64,000 nt of DNA from Yinghuangia seranimata (GTDB lineage: Bacteria; Actinomycetota; Actinomycetes; Streptomycetales; Streptomycetaceae): positions 186,001 to 250,000 of the forward strand of contig NZ_JASAOI010000011.1 of assembly GCF_029953285.1 (NCBI RefSeq), in the 5' to 3' direction. Positions 11,207-28,203 of this stretch are shown here, piece after piece (position 1 is the first letter of the stretch; the number at the start of each line of letters is the position of its first letter). The notes beneath the pieces are model-generated. The model searched no databases. It saw only the letters and a list, made by a program, of their open reading frames with translations, and was not told where the DNA came from. The position numbers and the translations under genes are program-made.

Positions 11207-12439
11207 ATGCGTCGTAGGTCCAGCCTGGTCCTCCTGACCCTGGCGGTGTTCTGCGTGGCGCTCGCGCCACTGCTGCGCGAATACGCCTTTCCGCGGCTTG
11301 TCGCGAAGGCGCTCAACAGCGACCAGGCCTACAAGGTGATGGTCCTCGAGGCCGACAACGCGACGCTTTTCGGCGCGCCCGAAGGCGACGGCAAGGCCAA
11401 GGCGTACATCATCCAAACGGTGAAGCCCAACCCCGACGAGGCCACGGGCCAGTCGGTGGTGTGGGACATGAACCTCGCCATGGTCGACAGCACCGGCAAG
11501 GTCGTCACCCAGATTCCCGAGCGCTACGTCTTCGACGCCGTCTCGCAGGCCCCCAAGAACTGCTGCGGTGAGCAGATCGACGGCAAGCCCGTCGCGCACA
11601 CCGGAATCCAGTACAAGTGGCCGTTCTTCGTCCAGAAGCGCGGTTACAACTACTACGACGCGCAGGCGCACACCGCCGCGACGATCGATTACAAGGGCAC
11701 CGAGAACTTCAACGGGCTCGAGGTCTACCGCTTCGAGCAGAGCGTTCCGTGGACCAAGGTCCCCGTGCCCAGCCAACTGCCCGGCGGCCTCACCCCCGAG
11801 AGCGTCGAACAGGCCGGCATGGAGCGCTGGTACACCACCGTGCGCACCTTCTGGGTCGAGCCCGTCACCGGCGCCCCCGTCTACGCGGAGGAGAAGCACC
11901 GGGAGGAGATGCGGACGCCCAACCCGGACGACCCCGCGCACCCGGGCGTCCTCGTCGTGTTCGACGGGCACGTGAAGATGCTCCCCGCGTGGTCCAACGC
12001 GCTCATCGCGGACGCCAAGGACCAGCGCGCTCAGATGCTCCTCATCCACGACCAGCTGCCGCTGGGCCTCGTCGTGGTCGGCGTCGTGCTCTTCCTCGTC
12101 GCGCTCCTCCTGGAGTTCCTCGGCCGGCGCAAGAAGGCCGACCCGGCGACGGGCGGCGGCACCCGGGGCGACGACGCGTCGCCGTCCGGGCCCGGCGGAA
12201 GCGGTAACGAGGGCACGGCCGGGCGCGAGCCCGTGGCGGTCGGAGCGTCCGGCGGCGGGGCGGGCGCGAACGCGGCCGAGACCGCCGTCCTGCCCCGCGT
12301 CGCCGACTCGCCGCCACTGAGCGGGGTCACCTCAGAGTCGGCCGCGGTCGCGGCGGACGCCCCCGCGCCGGCCAGCAACGGCAAGACCCCGGCGACCGCG
12401 TTCCCGGACCGACCCACGTCGCCGCCTCCGGCGAGCTGA
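11207..12439 (+). CDS. DUF3068 (PorA-family-like) membrane protein
   Basis: This 410-residue protein has an N-terminal transmembrane or signal-anchor segment (residues 6-24), a large extracytoplasmic domain of about 260 residues, a second transmembrane helix at about 285-305 (LGLVVVGVVLFLVALLLEFL), and a low-complexity Ala/Pro/Gly-rich cytoplasmic tail of about 100 residues. The segments MVDSTGKVVTQIPERYVFDAV, CCGEQIDGKPVAHTGIQYKW and FEQSVPWTKVPVPSQLPGG are characteristic of DUF3068. That family is restricted to actinobacteria and named after a channel-forming protein. ATG at 11207 with aagggga upstream. A porin role is doubtful in an organism without a mycolate outer membrane. Molecular function unknown. 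Confidence 0.85.
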   Translation: MRRRSSLVLLTLAVFCVALAPLLREYAFPRLVAKALNSDQAYKVMVLEADNATLFGAPEGDGKAKAYIIQTVKPNPDEATGQSVVWDMNLAMVDSTGKVVTQIPERYVFDAVSQAPKNCCGEQIDGKPVAHTGIQYKWPFFVQKRGYNYYDAQAHTAATIDYKGTENFNGLEVYRFEQSVPWTKVPVPSQLPGGLTPESVEQAGMERWYTTVRTFWVEPVTGAPVYAEEKHREEMRTPNPDDPAHPGVLVVFDGHVKMLPAWSNALIADAKDQRAQMLLIHDQLPLGLVVVGVVLFLVALLLEFLGRRKKADPATGGGTRGDDASPSGPGGSGNEGTAGREPVAVGASGGGAGANAAETAVLPRVADSPPLSGVTSESAAVAADAPAPASNGKTPATAFPDRPTSPPPAS

Positions 12440-18981: not shown

Positions 18982-19346
18982 CCACGCCCGAACCGGCCCG
19001 CCACACACGGCCCATGGGCGCGCACAGGCCTCGGGAATGCCACAGTTGTGTCACGAACGGGTGGTTTAGCCGTTCGCCCGCCGCTCCGCCGACCGGCCTC
19101 TGACCTGCGTGGACGGTACACGGAACGACCGTCGGGCGGACCCGGGGCACGGCCCGGTGAGGGCTCACCTGGGCGAAGCGGGGCCCCGCCGTTCGTCTAG
19201 GCTGAGGGCTTTGGCGCCGGGTGCCGAGCTGTCCGCCGCCGCGGACGCAGTGCATCCGGTGACCGGGCCGGACCGACAACCGACGGACGACGACTCGGGG
19301 GCCGCCGGGCCCAATGCCGTCGCGACATGTGGGAATGAGGATTCGC
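18982..19346 (+). other. Intergenic region (365 nt) before the DPA cassette
   Basis: No gene is supported. A 7-bp hairpin (19054-19060 with 19070-19076) may terminate the TolB-like gene. TAGGCT at 19198-19203 is a candidate -10 for the downstream operon, giving a leader of about 135 nt, but no -35 is recognisable. Confidence 0.5.
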
Positions 19347-19916
19347 ATGGCCTCTGGTGGGCTTCCGGCCACCGGCCAGGTATTGAGCATCGTCACCGGT
19401 ACGGATGTGGCCCTGTACCGGCACGTACGCGGACGGACCGGGCATCCGACGATCCAGAGGGCGAGCAAGGCCCTCTCTTTTGTGGGCGAGCACGGCGGGC
19501 TCTTCCTCGCGACCGGCCTGGTCGGTGCCGCCGTCGACCGTGAGCGGCGCGGCCAGTGGCTGCGCGCGACCGCGACGATCGCGACCGCGCACGCCGCGAG
19601 CATGGCCCTGAAGCGGGTCGTGCGCCGCCCCCGCCCGAACTTCGAGGGGCTCGAGCCGCTGGTGCGCACCGCCGGCCGGCACAGCTTCCCGTCCTCGCAC
19701 TCCGTCTCCGCGGCGGCCTCGGTCGTCGCGTTCCGCGGCCTGGTGCCGGCCCGGGTCACCGTGCCGGCCGCGGTCGCCATGGGCTTCTCCCGGCTCGTCG
19801 TCGGCGTCCACTACCCGACCGACGTCCTCGGTGGCGCGGCGATGGGCGTGGCCGCCGCCCGCGTGGGCCGGTCCTGGTCCGAGCGGTCCGTACCGAAATC
19901 CACGAAGGGGCGCTGA
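19347..19916 (+). CDS. PAP2-family phosphatase, probable decaprenylphosphoryl-5-phosphoribose phosphatase
   Basis: This protein is 189 residues from the ATG at 19347 (gagga 5 nt upstream; an in-frame ATG at 19335 and GTG at 19329 are alternatives). It carries the three PAP2 signature motifs: KRVVRRPRP (residues 89-97), PSSHS (115-119) and SRLVVGVHYPTDVLGG (148-163), with catalytic His in the second and third. Three to five hydrophobic helices surround them. It abuts UbiA (3-nt gap), DprE1 and DprE2, so it most likely removes the 5-phosphate from decaprenylphosphoryl-phosphoribose. That role was assigned in mycobacteria to the homologous gene next to ubiA. The substrate is inferred from context. 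Confidence 0.85.
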   Translation: MASGGLPATGQVLSIVTGTDVALYRHVRGRTGHPTIQRASKALSFVGEHGGLFLATGLVGAAVDRERRGQWLRATATIATAHAASMALKRVVRRPRPNFEGLEPLVRTAGRHSFPSSHSVSAAASVVAFRGLVPARVTVPAAVAMGFSRLVVGVHYPTDVLGGAAMGVAAARVGRSWSERSVPKSTKGR

Positions 19917-19919
19917 GCC

Positions 19920-20873
19920 GTGAGCACGTCCGAGATCGAGGCAGTGCCGCAGCAGAGCGGCGTCGGCACCGTCGAGGCGCCGCCGCGTCCGCCCCGGGGC
20001 GGGCTGCTCGGCGGGCTGGTCAAGCTCGCGCGCCCCAAGCAGTGGGTGAAGAACGTCCTGGTGTTCGCGGCGCCGTTGGCCGCCGGGAAGATCAACCACT
20101 GGGACGTCCTGCGCCAGTGCGTCTTCATCTTCGTGATCTTCAGCATCGCGGCGTCGGCGATCTACTACGTCAACGACGCGTTCGACGTGGAGTCCGACCG
20201 GCAGCACCCGAAGAAGAAGTACCGGCCGATCGCGTCCGGCGTCGTCCCGGTCAAGCTGGCCTGGGTGCTCGGCCCGGTGCTCGCGGTCGTCGCGGTCGGG
20301 CTGTCGTTCCTGCTGTGCAACGCCGGCACCGCGCTGATCGTCGGCCTGTACGTCGTGCTGCACGTGCTCTACAGCTTCGCGTTCAAGCACGTCCAGGTCC
20401 TCGACCTGATGATGGTCGCCTCCGGCTTCCTGTTCCGCGCCATGGTCGGCGGCGTCGCCGCCGACATCCCGCTGTCCCGCTGGTTCCTGCTGACCGCCGG
20501 CTTCGGCTCGCTGTTCATGGTCGCCGGCAAGCGGTACTCGGAGATGGTGCTGATGGGCGAGGAGGCCGCCAAGACCCGCGCGTCGCTGGCCAACTACTCC
20601 ATCACCTACCTGCGCTTCGTGTGGCAGATGTCGGTCGCGGTCACCGTGCTGACCTACAGCCTGTGGGCGTTCGACATCCCGCGCGGCGGCTCGACGCTGG
20701 CCTGGCAGCAGCTCTCGCTGGTCCCGTTCGGGTTCGTCCTGCTGCGGTACGCCGTTTACGTGGACGCAGGAACCGCGGGTGCCCCCGAGGACGTTGTGCT
20801 GAAGGACAAGGTCATCGTCGGACTCGGGTTCGCGTGGCTGCTCATGTTCGTCCTGGGAGTTTTCCATGTCTGA
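19920..20873 (+). CDS. ubiA: UbiA-family decaprenyl-phosphate phosphoribosyltransferase
   Basis: This 317-residue membrane prenyltransferase has the first Asp-rich motif NDAFDVESDRQHPKKKYRP near residues 83-101, which matches the phosphoribosyl-transferring subfamily (NDxxDxxxDxxHPxKxxRP). About nine hydrophobic helices are present. It transfers 5-phosphoribose from PRPP to polyprenyl phosphate, the first committed step of decaprenylphosphoryl-arabinose (DPA) synthesis. The N-terminal 33 residues are a Pro/Gly-rich extension. The GTG at 19920 is 3 nt after the phosphatase stop, and the 3' end overlaps dprE1 by 8 nt, giving a tight operon. The enzyme assignment is strong by motif plus context. 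Confidence 0.92.
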   Translation: MSTSEIEAVPQQSGVGTVEAPPRPPRGGLLGGLVKLARPKQWVKNVLVFAAPLAAGKINHWDVLRQCVFIFVIFSIAASAIYYVNDAFDVESDRQHPKKKYRPIASGVVPVKLAWVLGPVLAVVAVGLSFLLCNAGTALIVGLYVVLHVLYSFAFKHVQVLDLMMVASGFLFRAMVGGVAADIPLSRWFLLTAGFGSLFMVAGKRYSEMVLMGEEAAKTRASLANYSITYLRFVWQMSVAVTVLTYSLWAFDIPRGGSTLAWQQLSLVPFGFVLLRYAVYVDAGTAGAPEDVVLKDKVIVGLGFAWLLMFVLGVFHV

Positions 20874-22254
20874 CGGCCCCTCGGCCGAGCTCTTCCCCGC
20901 CGCGCGCCGCAAGGCGCTGACCGGTTGGGGCCGCACCTCGCCGACCTTCGCGGACGTCGTCGTGCCGATGACCCGCGAGCAGGTCGCGGCCGCCGTGCAG
21001 CGGCGCACCGAGCGGGGTGTGATCGCCCGCGGCCTGGGCCGCTCGTACGGCGACCCCGCGCAGAACGGCGGCGGCCTCGTCCTCGACATGAGCGGCATGA
21101 ACCGCGTGCTCGACGCCGACCTCGAGACCGGTGTCGTCACCGTCGAGGCCGGGGTCAGCCTCGACCGCCTCATTGAACTGTTCGTGCCGTTCGGGTTCTT
21201 CGTGCCCGTCACCCCCGGCACGCGGCAGGTCACCGTCGGCGGCGCGATCGGCGCCGACGTGCACGGCAAGAACCACCACGCCGACGGCAGCTTCTGCGAC
21301 CACGTCCTGTCCATGGACCTGCTGCTCGCCGACGGCACCGTCCGCACCGTCACCCCCGAGGACGACCCGGAGCTGTTCTGGGCCACCGCGGGCGGCATGG
21401 GCCTGACCGGCATCGTGCTCTCGGCGGTCGTCCGCCTGATCCCGATCGAGACCTCGCTCGTGTCCGTCGACACCGACCGCACGCGCGACCTCGACGAGAT
21501 CATGGCGCTGATGGCCGAGACCGACGAGAAGTACCGCTACACCGTCGCGTGGCTCGACTGCCTGGCCAAGGGCCGCAACCTCGGCCGCTCGGTGCTCACC
21601 TGCGGCGAGTTCGCCCGCCTGGAGGACCTGCCGGCGAAGAAGCGCGCGAAGCCGCTGCACTTCAAGAGCGGCAGCCTGGTGACCGTCCCCGACCTGGTGC
21701 CGGGGCGTCTGCCGAACAAGTTCACCATGGGCCTGTTCAACGAGCTGTGGTACCGCAAGGCGCCCCAGCACAAGGTCGGCCAGCTCCAGGGCATCTCGCC
21801 GTTCTTCCACCCGCTGGACGCCGTCCAGGAGTGGAACCGCGCGTACGGGAAGACCGGCTTCCTCCAGTACCAGTTCGTCGTCCCGTTCGAGAACGAGGAC
21901 GCGATGCGCACGATCGTGAAGACGATCAGCGACGCGGGCGCCCCGTCCTCGCTGACCGTCCTCAAGCGGTTCGGCCCCGGCAACCGCGGCTTCCTGTCGT
22001 TCCCCAAGCCGGGCTGGACGCTCACGCTGGACTTCCCGACCAACACCCCCGGGCTGTCCGCGCTGCTGCGCCGCCTCGACGAGATCGTGCTGTCCAACGA
22101 CGGCCGCTTCTACCTCGCCAAGGACTCCCGCATGGACCCCTCCGACCTGGCGGCGATGTACCCGCGGCTCGAGGAGTTCCGCGCGGTCCGCGCCAAGGTC
22201 GACCCGGACGGCGTGTTCGTCTCCGACCAGGCCCGCCGGCTCGGGCTCGCCTGA
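20866..22254 (+). CDS. dprE1: Decaprenylphosphoryl-beta-D-ribose 2'-oxidase DprE1
   Basis: This 462-residue FAD-dependent oxidase of the VAO/PCMH fold has ARGLGRSYGD (FAD-binding, about residues 49-58), GGAIGADVHGKNHH (His133 region) and the C-terminal YLAKDSRM with the active-site Lys. It oxidises the 2'-OH of decaprenylphosphoryl ribose, and DprE2 then reduces the ketone to the arabinose epimer. The position corresponding to the mycobacterial Cys387, in the segment GWTLTLDFP (residues 383-391), is Thr387. That Cys is the covalent target of benzothiazinones, so this enzyme is predicted not to be trapped by them. ATG at 20866 overlaps ubiA. Confidence 0.94.
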   Translation: MSDGPSAELFPAARRKALTGWGRTSPTFADVVVPMTREQVAAAVQRRTERGVIARGLGRSYGDPAQNGGGLVLDMSGMNRVLDADLETGVVTVEAGVSLDRLIELFVPFGFFVPVTPGTRQVTVGGAIGADVHGKNHHADGSFCDHVLSMDLLLADGTVRTVTPEDDPELFWATAGGMGLTGIVLSAVVRLIPIETSLVSVDTDRTRDLDEIMALMAETDEKYRYTVAWLDCLAKGRNLGRSVLTCGEFARLEDLPAKKRAKPLHFKSGSLVTVPDLVPGRLPNKFTMGLFNELWYRKAPQHKVGQLQGISPFFHPLDAVQEWNRAYGKTGFLQYQFVVPFENEDAMRTIVKTISDAGAPSSLTVLKRFGPGNRGFLSFPKPGWTLTLDFPTNTPGLSALLRRLDEIVLSNDGRFYLAKDSRMDPSDLAAMYPRLEEFRAVRAKVDPDGVFVSDQARRLGLA

Positions 22255-22292
22255 GACCGCCCGCCCGAACCCCACGTTGTGAAGGAAGCACG

Positions 22293-23048
22293 GTGAAAGA
22301 CGCTTTGGGCGCACCGCAGTCCCTGCTGATCCTCGGCGGCACGTCCGAGATCGCGCTCCACACCGCCCGCAAGCTCGTCGACGACCGGGTCCGCCGGGTC
22401 GTCCTGGCCGGCCGTCCGTCCGAGGGCCTCGACCGGGCGGCCGACGAGCTGCGCGGGCGCGGCGCCGAGGTCGAGGTCGTCGGCTTCGACGCGGCCGAGC
22501 CCGACACCCACGAGAAAGTGATCGACGGGGTGTTCGCCGACGGCGACATCGACGTCGTGCTGCTGGCCTTCGGCGTGCTCGGCGACCAGGAGGCCGACGA
22601 GCAGGACCCGGTCGCGGCCGCCAAGGTCGCCCAGGTCAACTACGTCGGCGGCGTCTCCGCGGGCCTCGCCTCGGTCAAGGCGCTGCGCCGGCAGGGCCAC
22701 GGCTCGCTCGCGGTGATCTCGTCCGTCGCCGCGGAGCGCGCCCGCAAGGCCAACTTCATCTACGGCTCGTCCAAGGCCGGCCTCGACGCCTTCGCGCAGG
22801 GCCTGGCGGACAAGACGCACGGCACCGGCGTGCACGTCATGGTCGTGCGCCCCGGCTTCGTGAAGACGAAGATGACGCAGGGCATGCCCGACGGGCCGAT
22901 GGCCACGACGCCGGACGTCGTCGCCGACGGCATCATCAAGGGCCTGCGCAAGGGCTCGACGACCATCTGGGTCCCGGGCCAGCTGCGGTTCGTGTTCTCG
23001 GCGCTGCGGCACGTGCCGCGGCCGATCTTCCGGAAGCTCCCGATCTGA
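22293..23048 (+). CDS. dprE2: Decaprenylphosphoryl-D-2-keto-erythropentose reductase DprE2 (SDR)
   Basis: This protein is 251 residues from the GTG at 22293 (gaaggaag upstream). It is a short-chain dehydrogenase with the NAD(P) motif LGGTSEIALHTARKL near residues 12-26 (the GGTSEIG-like form typical of DprE2), the catalytic Ser in VISSVAAER, and YxxxK as YGSSK. It completes the epimerisation begun by DprE1, producing decaprenylphosphoryl arabinose, the donor for cell-wall arabinan in mycobacteria. It is separated from dprE1 by 38 nt on the same strand and followed by a terminator, so it closes the four-gene cassette. Confidence 0.93.
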   Translation: MKDALGAPQSLLILGGTSEIALHTARKLVDDRVRRVVLAGRPSEGLDRAADELRGRGAEVEVVGFDAAEPDTHEKVIDGVFADGDIDVVLLAFGVLGDQEADEQDPVAAAKVAQVNYVGGVSAGLASVKALRRQGHGSLAVISSVAAERARKANFIYGSSKAGLDAFAQGLADKTHGTGVHVMVVRPGFVKTKMTQGMPDGPMATTPDVVADGIIKGLRKGSTTIWVPGQLRFVFSALRHVPRPIFRKLPI

Positions 23049-23132: not shown

Positions 23133-24800
23133 TCAGGGCCGGACGCCGACGTCCTCGGGGCGGGCCGCGGTCGCGAGGAGGTTGTCCGGGGTCGGCGGCG
23201 GAAGCGGCTTCGCCGGGTGCTTCACGGCGGCCGGGCCCTCGGCGAACGCGCGCAGGACGGTCTCGGTCATGCGCTCCAGCGCGGCGCGGCTCGTCGGGTC
23301 GACCGGCATCTCGTGGCACTGGCCGCGGAGTTGGCACGGCCAGTAGGTCGTCCCGCCCGAGAACACGCCCGCGCCCGACGCGGCCGTGTAGTACGACATC
23401 GTGCCCATCGCGGCCTGCGGGCCGACCCTGAGCGGGGCCGCGGCGATCACGGCCAGGCCCGGCGGGGAGTCGGCGGCGTCCGGCACGGCGACGTCGTACT
23501 CGCCGCCGAGCGAGTTCGCCAGCACCTGGCCGTCCCGCAACCCCGTGCCGGCGAAGATCCACGACGCCGCGTCGAGGACCCGGAACGAACCCACCACGCC
23601 CAGCCCGCCCCACGTCGCCCCGACGAGGCGGTGCTCACCGCGGTCCAGCGGCGACTCCCGCCAGGTGACGGTCGCCTGCTGCGGGTCGTCCTTCGCGAGC
23701 GGGTCCTCGTCGAGCTTGCGGTAGACGGCCATGCGCCGGTCGGGACCCGCCGCCGACGGCTCCAGACGGGCGTGCCAGTAAACGGTGTTCGCGCCGAAGA
23801 ACGCGATGTTCACGCCCCGGTCGCGGGCGGCCTCCGCGGCGTCGTACATGCGGCGCGTCCAGTACTCGTCGTGGCCGCCGACGACCAGCGCCTTGTGCCG
23901 CAGCAGTTGCGACGGCCTGCGGTCCACGTCGACGTCCGTCACGTATCCGACGTCCAGGCCGGTGCGCTCCATCGCCTGCACCATCGGGATGTCGTACCAG
24001 AACGGCACCAGGTAACCGCTGCCGGTGTACGGGCGTTCGAAGCTCGCCACCCGCGCCCGGTCGCTGCGCGCGCCGCTGGTGTCCTTGGGGCCGCTGTAGA
24101 GGCCGTACGCGCCGAACGTGTTGTACGCCTGCGCGGTCAGGTTCGCCGCCTGGAACAGCAGCGGCGCCGAGCCCGCGTCGTCGCGCACCGTCAGCTGGAT
24201 GCCGTACGCGCTGCCCGCCGGATTGCGCACGACCAGCAGGTAGTAGCCCGGCGGCCACTCCTCGGTCACCGGAAACTCCAGCGACACCGGCCAGTTCGTC
24301 TCCACGGTGTACGTCGGCGCCGCGGCCTTCGGCTTCGGCCGCTCCATGCTCGGCACCGGGCCCGACGACCACACCAGCCGCCCGCCGGTGCCGCCGTACC
24401 AGCCCATCCGGTACGCCGACACCGTGCCCGGGCCCGGGCCCGTCAGGCGCAGCCGGACCGTGTCGCCGCACGCCACGCTGTCGCTGTCGACGAACCCCAT
24501 CAGGTCCGCGCCCCACCGCTCCGGAACCCGCCAATCACCGGTGCCCGGACGCCTGTTCTCGTCGGCGACCCACCCGGCCGGGAGCCGCTTGCGGGCACAC
24601 GGCGCGGTCGCCGGCCCGCCGCGGTCCTCCGGCATCACGCCTCGGCTCACCGGACGGTCGGCCGTTTCCGGCGAGGACGGCACGGGCCCTGTCCTCGCCG
24701 CGGGCGCGGGCGCGGCGGCGCGCGAAGGCACGTCGTCGCACGCCGGTAACGCGCAGAGCAGAACGGCGAACAGCACGGTCGCGAGCCGGGTGCGGGCCAT
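23133..24800 (-). CDS. Lipoprotein with N,N-dimethylformamidase beta-subunit-like domain
   Basis: This 555-residue protein has a signal peptide ending in the lipobox LPAC (ALLCALPAC, Cys near residue 21), so it is probably lipid-anchored outside the membrane. A Pro/Ala/Arg-rich linker and a beta-sandwich region (GDTVRLRLTGPGPGTVSAYR, YRMGWYGGTGGR) follow. The main domain is that found at the C-terminus of N,N-dimethylformamidase large subunits (FWYDIPMVQAMERTGLDVGY, LVVGGHDEYWTRRMYDA, VNIAFFGANTVYWHAR). Such proteins are widespread in actinobacteria and their activity is mostly untested; amidase activity should not be assumed. Start ATG 24800 with gagga upstream. It is divergent from coaE. 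Confidence 0.82.
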   Translation of the reverse strand: MARTRLATVLFAVLLCALPACDDVPSRAAAPAPAARTGPVPSSPETADRPVSRGVMPEDRGGPATAPCARKRLPAGWVADENRRPGTGDWRVPERWGADLMGFVDSDSVACGDTVRLRLTGPGPGTVSAYRMGWYGGTGGRLVWSSGPVPSMERPKPKAAAPTYTVETNWPVSLEFPVTEEWPPGYYLLVVRNPAGSAYGIQLTVRDDAGSAPLLFQAANLTAQAYNTFGAYGLYSGPKDTSGARSDRARVASFERPYTGSGYLVPFWYDIPMVQAMERTGLDVGYVTDVDVDRRPSQLLRHKALVVGGHDEYWTRRMYDAAEAARDRGVNIAFFGANTVYWHARLEPSAAGPDRRMAVYRKLDEDPLAKDDPQQATVTWRESPLDRGEHRLVGATWGGLGVVGSFRVLDAASWIFAGTGLRDGQVLANSLGGEYDVAVPDAADSPPGLAVIAAAPLRVGPQAAMGTMSYYTAASGAGVFSGGTTYWPCQLRGQCHEMPVDPTSRAALERMTETVLRAFAEGPAAVKHPAKPLPPPTPDNLLATAARPEDVGVRP

Positions 24801-25611: not shown

Positions 25612-28203
25612 ATGCACGACGAGACAACCGGCCGCGCCGACGATCCGACCGCAACAACGGACTCCGGCGACCCGGTCGCCCACCGACGCCCCCCGCACCA
25701 GACGGTGAACGCTCCCACACCCCACGAGCGCGCCCCAGACACCGCTCCACCGCCCCCTGAACGCCCTCCAGCCGCGCCGCAGCGGCACCACGAGCCGCCG
25801 ACTGCGGGAATGGTCCTCCCGCCCCCGAGAAGCCACCCCAACGCCGCCGCGACGGAGAACGACGCGACGGCACAGCCTGACGCGACGGCTGCGGACGCGC
25901 CTGCGGAACGGGTCGACGCCGACGCGGTTCGTGCTGACCACGCCCTGACCCAGCCCGCCGATGCGGGGCCCGAGGCACCGGCTGAAGCCGCCCCGGCTTC
26001 CGTCGGTCGGGGGTGGCGGCGCTTTGCCGGTGTGGCTGCGCCGGCCGCGCGCGGGGTCGGCGGGTGGGTCGCCGGCGGCCACGGCGGCTCCGTCGGTGCG
26101 GACGACGACGCGACGGCTGCGGACGCGCCTGCGGAACGGGTCGACCCCAACGTCCCCGCCGACCGCGCCCGACCCCAGCCCGCCGAAGCAGGATCCGCGG
26201 CCCCGCCAGCCGAACCCGCCCCGGCCCCCCCTGGTCGGCGGTGGCTGCGCTGTGTCGACGTGGCTGTGCGCGTGGTCGGCGGGCGGGGTGCCCGGGGGCG
26301 CGGCAGCTCTGTTGGCGTGGGGGAGGACTCCACCGCGCGGGCCGGGGTGTTCGCGGAGTCGTGGGTCGGACCGGGGCCTGCTGGTGTTCGAGCCCGTCGG
26401 TGGTTGTTGTCCATTGCCCATGTGCCGCAAAGGGCCGCGGCCCGTCCGACTGCTCAGGGTGTCGTCGGTGAGTCGGCTAACTGGTCGACCCGCTCCGCTC
26501 GTCGGCGGTGGGTGGGGGTCGGAGTCCATCTCGTCTGGCCGTCGCTGCTCGCCACCTGGCTCACCTACTCCGTCGGGCGGTACGGGTTCGCGCCGATGGA
26601 CCAAGGGTTCACGCAAGCGCTCTCGTGGCGGATCCTGCACGGGCAGGTGCCGCACGCGGACTTCTTCTCTCCTCGGCCCGCCGGGTCGGCGGTGTTCCAT
26701 CTCGTCGACTTCGTTCTGCCGGGGCCGCTCATGCTGGTCCAAGCCTGGGTCGCGTGCCTGGAGTTCGTTGGTTCGGCGGTGGCTCTGGCCGTGCTCGCGA
26801 CCGGGCGGGGGGTTGTTCGGTTCGGGCCGTTGCTCGTCGGGTGTGTGGCGGCGGCTGCGATGGTCGATCTGCATATGTGGCCTGCCATGACGTGGCACAC
26901 CACGGACGGGATCTTCTTCGCGTCGGTCGGCTGGGCTCTCGTCGATCGGGGCCGCCGTAGGACGGCCGTGCGGCGGAGCGGGCTGGTCGTCGCCGGGTGT
27001 GCCGTCGTGTGCAAGCAGAGTTTCGCGCCCGTGCCGCTGGTCGCCGCTGCGTTGCTGTTGTCGGGGCCGGATCGGCGTGCCCGGGTTCGGGAGCTGCCGC
27101 TCCTCGCCGGGGTGCCCGTCGCGTACGTCGTGTGGGTCGTGCTCGGCGGCGGTGCGGCCGAGCTGCCGGATCAGCTGCTCGGGGCCGACGGGGTCTGGGG
27201 TGAGCGGCTGCTGACGATGCTGCCCGACATGTTGCGGGGCACTCCGCAGGAGGCCCGATGGGCGGTGCTGTACGGCCTGGCGCTCGTCGGGTGGGTGCTC
27301 GCCCGGCGCCTCCCCACAGTCCCGCGGTGGGCCGACCTCGGGGCGCGTGCCGTGGCCTCGGTGGCGGTCGTCGGGGAGCTCGCACAGGCGAGCATGAGTT
27401 TCGACCGGGTCCTCTACTCCTGCCTGCTGTGGTGGATGCTCCTGGCCGCCGCCGTCGCGGACGCCCTCGTCCGGCGCCGGCCGCCCGTCCGGGCGCTGCC
27501 GGTGCTCGCGCTCGGGTGGATGGCCGCGTTGTCGTACGGCTACGACGTGCCCGCGCTGGTCGGCGGCTCGCTGGCCCTGACGCTCCTGGTCGTGCTGTGG
27601 CGGGACGTGCCACCGCCGATCCGTCCCGGAGGGCTCCGACGCACGGGCGTGCTCGTCGTCGCCGGGGCGCTCGTCGCGTCCGCCGGCGCCGTCAAGCTGA
27701 TCCACGTCCGCGACACCTACGGCTACCTCGACGGCGGCCGTCCAGGCCTGACCCACGGCATGGGCGCGGTCTCGTCGGACCTGCGGGGCATCCGCACCAC
27801 CGAGGGCGACCTGCGGTACATGGCGCAGATCCGCGACTGCGTCGCGGCGCGGCCCGCGAGCCGGGTCGCGGTGCTGCCGGACGCCGCCGCGGCGTATCCG
27901 CTGTTCCGCCTGGACAACCCGTTCCCGATGGACTGGCTGTACGTCAAGGAGGTCACCAACCCCGAGGCCCGCAAGCTCATGGTCAAGAGGGCCAAGGAGC
28001 TCGACCGCGAGGGCGACTACCTGGTGCTGTTCTCGACGCTGGACGTGCGGTTCCTGGCGAAGCCCGGCTACGTGCCCGACCTGGTGCGCCCCGACCAGCC
28101 CATCCGGCACTGGTCGCGCATCGAGGTGCTGGTGCGCCGTGAGCTGCACGGGGAGGTGTTCGGGTGCGGGTCCTTCGTCGCGGTGTGGGCCCCCGGGCGC
28201 TGA
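25612..28203 (+). CDS. GT-C-type membrane glycosyltransferase-like protein with duplicated low-complexity N-terminus
   Basis: This protein is 863 residues from the ATG at 25612 (gagggg 5 nt upstream). The first 300 residues or so are hydrophilic and Ala/Pro/Asp-rich and contain a tandem duplication of about 76 residues (both copies begin DATAADAPAERVD). From about residue 305 it becomes a polytopic membrane protein of roughly ten helices. Its first external loop (GRYGFAPMDQGFTQALSWRI, then HGQVPHADFFSPRPAG) has the Asp-containing arrangement of GT-C enzymes that use polyprenyl-phosphate sugars. The C-terminal 180 residues are a soluble extracytoplasmic domain. It lies 2.5 kb from the DPA cassette, so a DPA-dependent arabinosyltransferase role is possible but unproven. 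Translation of the low-complexity N-terminus is less certain than the core. Confidence 0.65.
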   Translation: MHDETTGRADDPTATTDSGDPVAHRRPPHQTVNAPTPHERAPDTAPPPPERPPAAPQRHHEPPTAGMVLPPPRSHPNAAATENDATAQPDATAADAPAERVDADAVRADHALTQPADAGPEAPAEAAPASVGRGWRRFAGVAAPAARGVGGWVAGGHGGSVGADDDATAADAPAERVDPNVPADRARPQPAEAGSAAPPAEPAPAPPGRRWLRCVDVAVRVVGGRGARGRGSSVGVGEDSTARAGVFAESWVGPGPAGVRARRWLLSIAHVPQRAAARPTAQGVVGESANWSTRSARRRWVGVGVHLVWPSLLATWLTYSVGRYGFAPMDQGFTQALSWRILHGQVPHADFFSPRPAGSAVFHLVDFVLPGPLMLVQAWVACLEFVGSAVALAVLATGRGVVRFGPLLVGCVAAAAMVDLHMWPAMTWHTTDGIFFASVGWALVDRGRRRTAVRRSGLVVAGCAVVCKQSFAPVPLVAAALLLSGPDRRARVRELPLLAGVPVAYVVWVVLGGGAAELPDQLLGADGVWGERLLTMLPDMLRGTPQEARWAVLYGLALVGWVLARRLPTVPRWADLGARAVASVAVVGELAQASMSFDRVLYSCLLWWMLLAAAVADALVRRRPPVRALPVLALGWMAALSYGYDVPALVGGSLALTLLVVLWRDVPPPIRPGGLRRTGVLVVAGALVASAGAVKLIHVRDTYGYLDGGRPGLTHGMGAVSSDLRGIRTTEGDLRYMAQIRDCVAARPASRVAVLPDAAAAYPLFRLDNPFPMDWLYVKEVTNPEARKLMVKRAKELDREGDYLVLFSTLDVRFLAKPGYVPDLVRPDQPIRHWSRIEVLVRRELHGEVFGCGSFVAVWAPGR
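25879..25917 (+). repeat. 39-bp direct repeat, copy 1, within the GT-C-like gene
   Basis: This is identical over 39 bp to 26107-26145. The copies are 228 bp (76 codons) apart and in frame, marking a recent internal duplication in the N-terminal low-complexity region. Confidence 0.9.
26107..26145 (+). repeat. 39-bp direct repeat, copy 2, within the GT-C-like gene
   Basis: This is identical to 25879-25917. The surrounding 76-residue units are otherwise diverged, so the exact match may reflect gene conversion or a shorter recent copy. Confidence 0.9.

Follow-up and report, generated by a model that had tools for sequence, protein, structure and literature searches.

A threonine at the benzothiazinone-target position of DprE1 from a Streptomycetaceae-type actinomycete, and the restricted distribution of Cys387 in its class sample

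Covalent benzothiazinones require the thiol of Cys387 of DprE1, a residue that is dispensable for DprE1 activity (PMC6128881). The residue is described as highly conserved in orthologues of various Actinobacteria, with Ala in M. avium and Ser in M. aurum (PMC3206020, citing earlier work), and as present in named corynebacterial, nocardial and rhodococcal orthologues and not in M. avium (PMC3035642). An earlier note on the 64,000-nucleotide stretch of DNA analysed here (the window) read a Thr at this position in a putative DprE1. The locus raises the question of whether the protein is a DprE1, whether its residue 387 is a Thr, and what such a residue means for drug sensitivity. We are confident that the protein is an ordinary DprE1, encoded on the chromosome of a Streptomycetaceae-type actinomycete and carrying Thr387, whose covalent inactivation by benzothiazinones is predicted to fail.

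The features of the locus are collected in Table 1. The dprE1 ORF matched the NCBIfam DprE1 equivalog with 713 bits (cut-off 500). When the protein was compared with PDB chains using phmmer, M. smegmatis DprE1 (4aut, E 2e-144) ranked first and M. tuberculosis DprE1 next. The AlphaFold model (34 sequences) had a mean pLDDT of 89.7, and its closest fold match was M. tuberculosis DprE1. Among the top 49 PDB fold matches, which share 43-50% identity with the window protein, DprE1 is named in the titles of 45, whereas the titles of the remaining four (4pfa, 4pfd) give M. tuberculosis plus a ligand. From the sequence matches and the model we take the ORF to encode a genuine DprE1, which would oxidize polyprenylphosphoryl ribose.

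Table 1. Coordinates of the dprE1 module and of the residue 387 region in the window
Feature	Coordinates	Strand	Evidence
PAP2-family phosphatase	19314..19916	+	PF01569 69 bits; same order in 5/5 relatives
UbiA-family decaprenyl-phosphate phosphoribosyltransferase	19920..20873	+	NCBIfam NF008978 403 bits, cut-off 207; PF01040
dprE1, decaprenylphosphoryl-beta-D-ribose oxidase, 462 aa	20866..22254	+	NCBIfam NF053785, PDB sequence matches, AlphaFold model
Segment GWTLTLDFP, equivalent of mycobacterial GWNICVDFP	22012..22038	+	Translation and alignment
Codon ACG, Thr387, at the site of the benzothiazinone-reactive Cys387	22024..22026	+	Translation and alignment
dprE2, decaprenylphospho-2-ketoribose reductase (start uncertain)	22254..23048	+	NCBIfam NF053786 361 bits, cut-off 250; PF00106

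The UbiA gene, dprE1 and dprE2 are adjacent on one strand, each with an equivalog-level NCBIfam match, and the first two overlap by 8 bases if dprE1 starts at the ATG at 20866. The PAP2 phosphatase is probably the phosphoribosyl-lipid phosphatase of the DprE1 pathway, a role suggested by its position. In the proposed pathway UbiA would transfer the phosphoribosyl group, PAP2 would remove the phosphate, and DprE1 and DprE2 would act in turn, DprE2 by keto reduction, so that the four-gene module would convert polyprenyl-phosphoryl ribose to polyprenyl-phosphoryl arabinose. The order rpsA-MFS-WD40-PAP2-UbiA-dprE1-dprE2-coaE-uvrB (the third being WD40-like) was kept in all five relatives from the window's genus and the neighbouring genus, and rpsA, coaE, UbiA, dprE1, dprE2 and uvrB were found together in both genomes examined from a second family in the order. 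The region of genome G014 is without the dprE1 module and gave only a 25% match. In a set of 247 loci, which includes some duplicates, 223 had a DprE2 match downstream of dprE1 and in the same orientation, the flank being too short to judge in 7 of the other 24; a UbiA match was present within the flanking DNA examined in 183, but in only 2 of 30 Cys loci. The window genome has a single dprE1 copy (next match, E 5e-16), and this, together with the conserved rpsA-coaE-uvrB neighbourhood, suggests that the gene is housekeeping and not a self-resistance copy. Adjoining dprE2, on the minus strand at 23133-24800, is a gene whose product resembles the N,N-dimethylformamidase beta subunit (PF20254, 351 bits). 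One of the two relatives from the window's genus has this gene in the same position, and none of the three from the neighbouring genus does.

The segment around residue 387 reads GGC TGG ACG CTC ACG CTG GAC TTC CCG. Its fifth codon specifies Thr, which is residue 387 both by the protein's own count and, in the alignment, by native M. tuberculosis numbering. This Thr aligned with the Cys of the M. tuberculosis motif and of M. smegmatis GWNVCVDFP; no gap lay inside the motif, and the nearest, of one residue, was three residues beyond it. The alignment thus bears out the earlier reading of Thr, and not Cys, at the target position. A sequencing error is an unlikely source of Thr387, since the residue was found in 6/6 sampled genomes, three from the window's genus (its own included) and three from the neighbouring one. 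These six sequences formed one tree group with a support of 100. Three Cys residues of the window protein lie away from position 387, at 144, 232 and 246 (M. tuberculosis positions 143, 233 and 247).

The alignment revealed that the equivalents of M. tuberculosis Tyr60, Gly117, His132, Gly133, Lys134, Trp230, Gln334, Gln336, Val365, Lys367, Phe369 and Lys418 are kept, and hence all five residues reported to face the drug CF3 group (His132, Gly133, Lys134, Lys367 and Phe369; PMC6128881). The note had further held that the Lys and FAD residues are retained, and this agrees with the presence of the Lys418 equivalent, shared by 136 of the 139 class sequences sampled (window included), and with a match of 100 bits to the FAD-binding domain PF01565. 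The window protein differs from M. tuberculosis DprE1 in having Phe for Tyr314, Arg for Leu368, Thr for Asn385 and Thr for Cys387. The three differences besides 387 are the majority states in the 139-sequence sample (Phe314 in 95, Arg368 in 101 and Thr385 in 94), and they could shift non-covalent binding either way.

Non-covalent binding of the drug precedes the covalent step (PMC6128881). With Thr387 in place of a thiol, a benzothiazinone that the flavin has reduced to its nitroso form would have no bonding partner at this site, and irreversible inactivation should fail. The window enzyme is without Cys at 387, as a naturally insensitive DprE1 should be, and, by analogy with the mycobacterial data, it can soundly be predicted to be insensitive to covalent benzothiazinones. 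How resistant an enzyme is varies with the residue at 387. MICs above 100 ug/ml are given for five species (M. avium, M. abscessus, M. bolletii, M. massiliense and M. vaccae), with Ala or Ser at 387 named as the probable cause, and an M. smegmatis Cys-to-Gly mutant still responds to BTZ043 at 25 ug/ml and to PBTZ169 at 6.25 ug/ml (PMC3958311). Thr is among the 387 resistance substitutions in the table of a review (PMC8152995, citing Foo et al. 2016); the literature passages searched gave no MIC or enzyme figure for Thr387.

The class survey consisted of a protein search of 394 genomes, the window's included, with a cut-off of E 1e-60. Matches were obtained in 136 genomes, and residue 387 was read by alignment in 139 sequences covering all of them (window included): Ala in 104, Cys in 24, Thr in 9, and Ser and Glu in one each. 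The oddity that the note had implied for Thr387 was not upheld, because 115 of the 139 sequences are without Cys; for the window genome itself, Thr387 is real but ordinary. Cys387 is a minority, lineage-restricted residue in the class sample. Where Cys is missing, the residue is commonly Ala or Thr, and Ala387 predominates in the sampled homologues from outside the mycobacterial lineage. Cys was confined to two families, f6 (23 of 36 sequences, the rest being 12 Ala and 1 Ser) and f48 (1 of 2). Family f6 was taken as Mycobacteriaceae on two grounds: Emb is present in every one of its 35 DprE1-bearing genomes, and the M. tuberculosis reference lies among the f6 Cys sequences in the tree. In the window's family, none of the 21 sampled sequences had Cys; 19 had Ala, the window Thr and one Glu. 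This last one (L237, genome G388) is a DprE1-like protein that also has Gln367, and perhaps has a different function. One f6 genome (G409) carries two DprE1 copies, with Ser387 (L165) and Cys387 (L212), a pair that resembles that of Nocardia brasiliensis.

Among the best 80 of 586 named loci, 59 had Ala, 13 Thr, 6 Cys (5 from Pseudonocardiaceae and 1 from Mycolicibacterium) and 2 Ser; these loci scored highest against a query alignment headed by the window enzyme, which biases them against Cys, so the proportions at 387 are taken from the class sample. In two MAG records titled Bifidobacterium breve there are DprE1-like genes that share 56% (L062) and 53% (L092) identity with the query, and here the title or the bin is probably wrong; DprE1 homologues on MAG contigs titled Chloroflexi and Acidobacteria (L070 and L093) reflect either transfer or a binning error. 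A search of the open literature by term found no wide survey of residue 387.

On the FastTree tree, whose many long branches and flagged joins make change counts rough and without direction, Thr387 was scattered outside the window's group; its distribution needed a minimum of 12 changes, 7 of them forced by starred branches, and that of Cys387 a minimum of 5, with 4 forced. At 387 in the sample, Ala was encoded by GCN, Thr by ACN, all 3 Ser by AGC and Cys by TGC or TGT. The four codons Ala GCC, Thr ACC, Ser AGC and Cys TGC, all present in the sample, are joined in this order by single-base steps only. It is conceivable, though rather unlikely, that Cys387 is derived and arose within the Pseudonocardiaceae-Mycobacteriaceae line, and that the older Cys-free DprE1, the window's included, keeps the drug pocket and may reduce nitro-benzothiazinones repeatedly without being trapped, so that it would work on them as a harmless nitroreductase and not be a suicide target.

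The genome of the window, estimated to be 98% complete, gave no match at E 0.001 to Emb (PF04602), AftA (PF12250) or AftD (PF11847), each of which was detected in the Corynebacterium glutamicum control, and hence the genes that mark the mycobacterial arabinogalactan pathway were not found in it. As none of these three families supplies a user of the arabinose donor here, the product of the pathway is deduced from the neighbouring genes only, and insensitivity of the strain would tell little about DprE1. At 25612-28203 (plus strand) there is an 863-amino acid ORF with the look of a membrane protein and no Pfam or NCBIfam match. A tblastn search of the region gave a match in both same-genus relatives and in none of the three from the neighbouring genus. 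Its candidacy as the missing arabinosyltransferase was not supported, since it has neither a family match nor a counterpart near dprE1 in the three neighbouring-genus genomes, all of which retain the module. At 11207-12439 (plus strand), in this genome without Emb-type arabinan genes, there is a strong match to the Pfam family Porin PorA (236 bits).

In the class sample, whose genomes are related, a Cys copy was present in 24 of the 37 Emb-positive genomes with DprE1 and in 0 of 99 Emb-negative ones. In 14 named genomes chosen for their residue, Emb was present in 5 of 6 with Cys, 3 of 6 with Thr and 1 of 2 with Ser, and Saccharothrix carnea has Cys387 without Emb. We make no claim that Cys387 marks Emb-type arabinan, because the class genomes are related and the 14-genome test weakened the link.

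Could the protein instead be a different oxidase from the flavoprotein superfamily of DprE1, acting on a sugar or polyol, so that residue 387 would be irrelevant to benzothiazinones? Pfam alone gave only a generic FAD_binding_4 and a modest ALO match, and the missing Emb, AftA and AftD matches point in the same direction. Nevertheless, the DprE1 equivalog was matched well above its cut-off, the DprE2 and UbiA equivalogs are adjacent, and identity falls from the range of the first 49 fold matches to 15% at the 50th, a galactonolactone dehydrogenase. We rejected a misread oxidase on the equivalog and fold matches, and consider it very improbable. With the enzyme accepted as a DprE1, strong inhibition could still occur non-covalently or via another nucleophile, as the CF3-facing residues are all kept and drug binding does not begin with the covalent bond. 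This is improbable, given that natural Ala and Ser enzymes go with the high MICs of the five mycobacterial species named above (PMC3958311) and that Arg368 and Thr385 are further differences in the pocket.

A different proposal concerns the origin of Thr387, which might have been selected as a self-resistance change against a nitroaromatic natural inhibitor of DprE1. Change at 387 is a known route to target resistance in mycobacteria (PMC3206020, PMC3958311), and the at least 12 tree changes of Thr, 7 of them forced, point to repeated gain or loss. A self-resistance copy was nonetheless rejected, and selection of this kind appears extremely improbable: dprE1 occurs only once in the genome, within a core rpsA-coaE-uvrB block and with no recognisable biosynthetic genes beside it, the commonest state (Ala in 104 of 139) is already Cys-free, so that there was probably nothing to protect, and the survey suggests a Cys-free ancestor for the window's family. 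An ordinary housekeeping DprE1 with Thr387 is thus the reading that we retain.

Residue 387 should not be read as conserved across Actinobacteria, contrary to the passages in PMC3206020 and, drawn from a few mycolic-acid genera, in PMC3035642. As Cys was found in only 24 of the 139 sampled sequences, covalent benzothiazinones should spare DprE1 in many soil actinomycetes. A passage in PMC4608729 states that Streptomyces do not possess DprE1 orthologues. In genus g9, taken as Streptomyces, 20 of the 39 listed genomes had a match at E 1e-60, although identity was only 49% in G024 and 47% in G388. A DprE1 match was also present in named Streptomyces records, so that the statement needs narrowing.

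Compared with the DprE1 enzymes of M. tuberculosis and M. smegmatis (PDB 4fdn, 4ncr, 4aut and 4f4q), the window enzyme has the fold and the FAD domain in common, whereas its genome differs from theirs in being without an Emb match. The naturally resistant enzymes of M. avium (Ala) and M. aurum (Ser; PMC3206020) resemble it in having no thiol at 387, and would likewise offer no covalent trap there; however, they come from a family in which Cys is common, if f6 is Mycobacteriaceae, and the window's family is without it in the sample. The second DprE1 of Nocardia brasiliensis, with Ser, is also a natural non-Cys enzyme, but that species has a Cys copy as well (PMC4608729), whereas the window genome has one copy only. 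The Ala387 enzymes of Streptomyces, Catenulispora, Streptosporangium and others are without Cys as the window enzyme is, whose Arg368 and Thr385 are likewise the commonest states in the sample, and they have Ala where the window enzyme has Thr.
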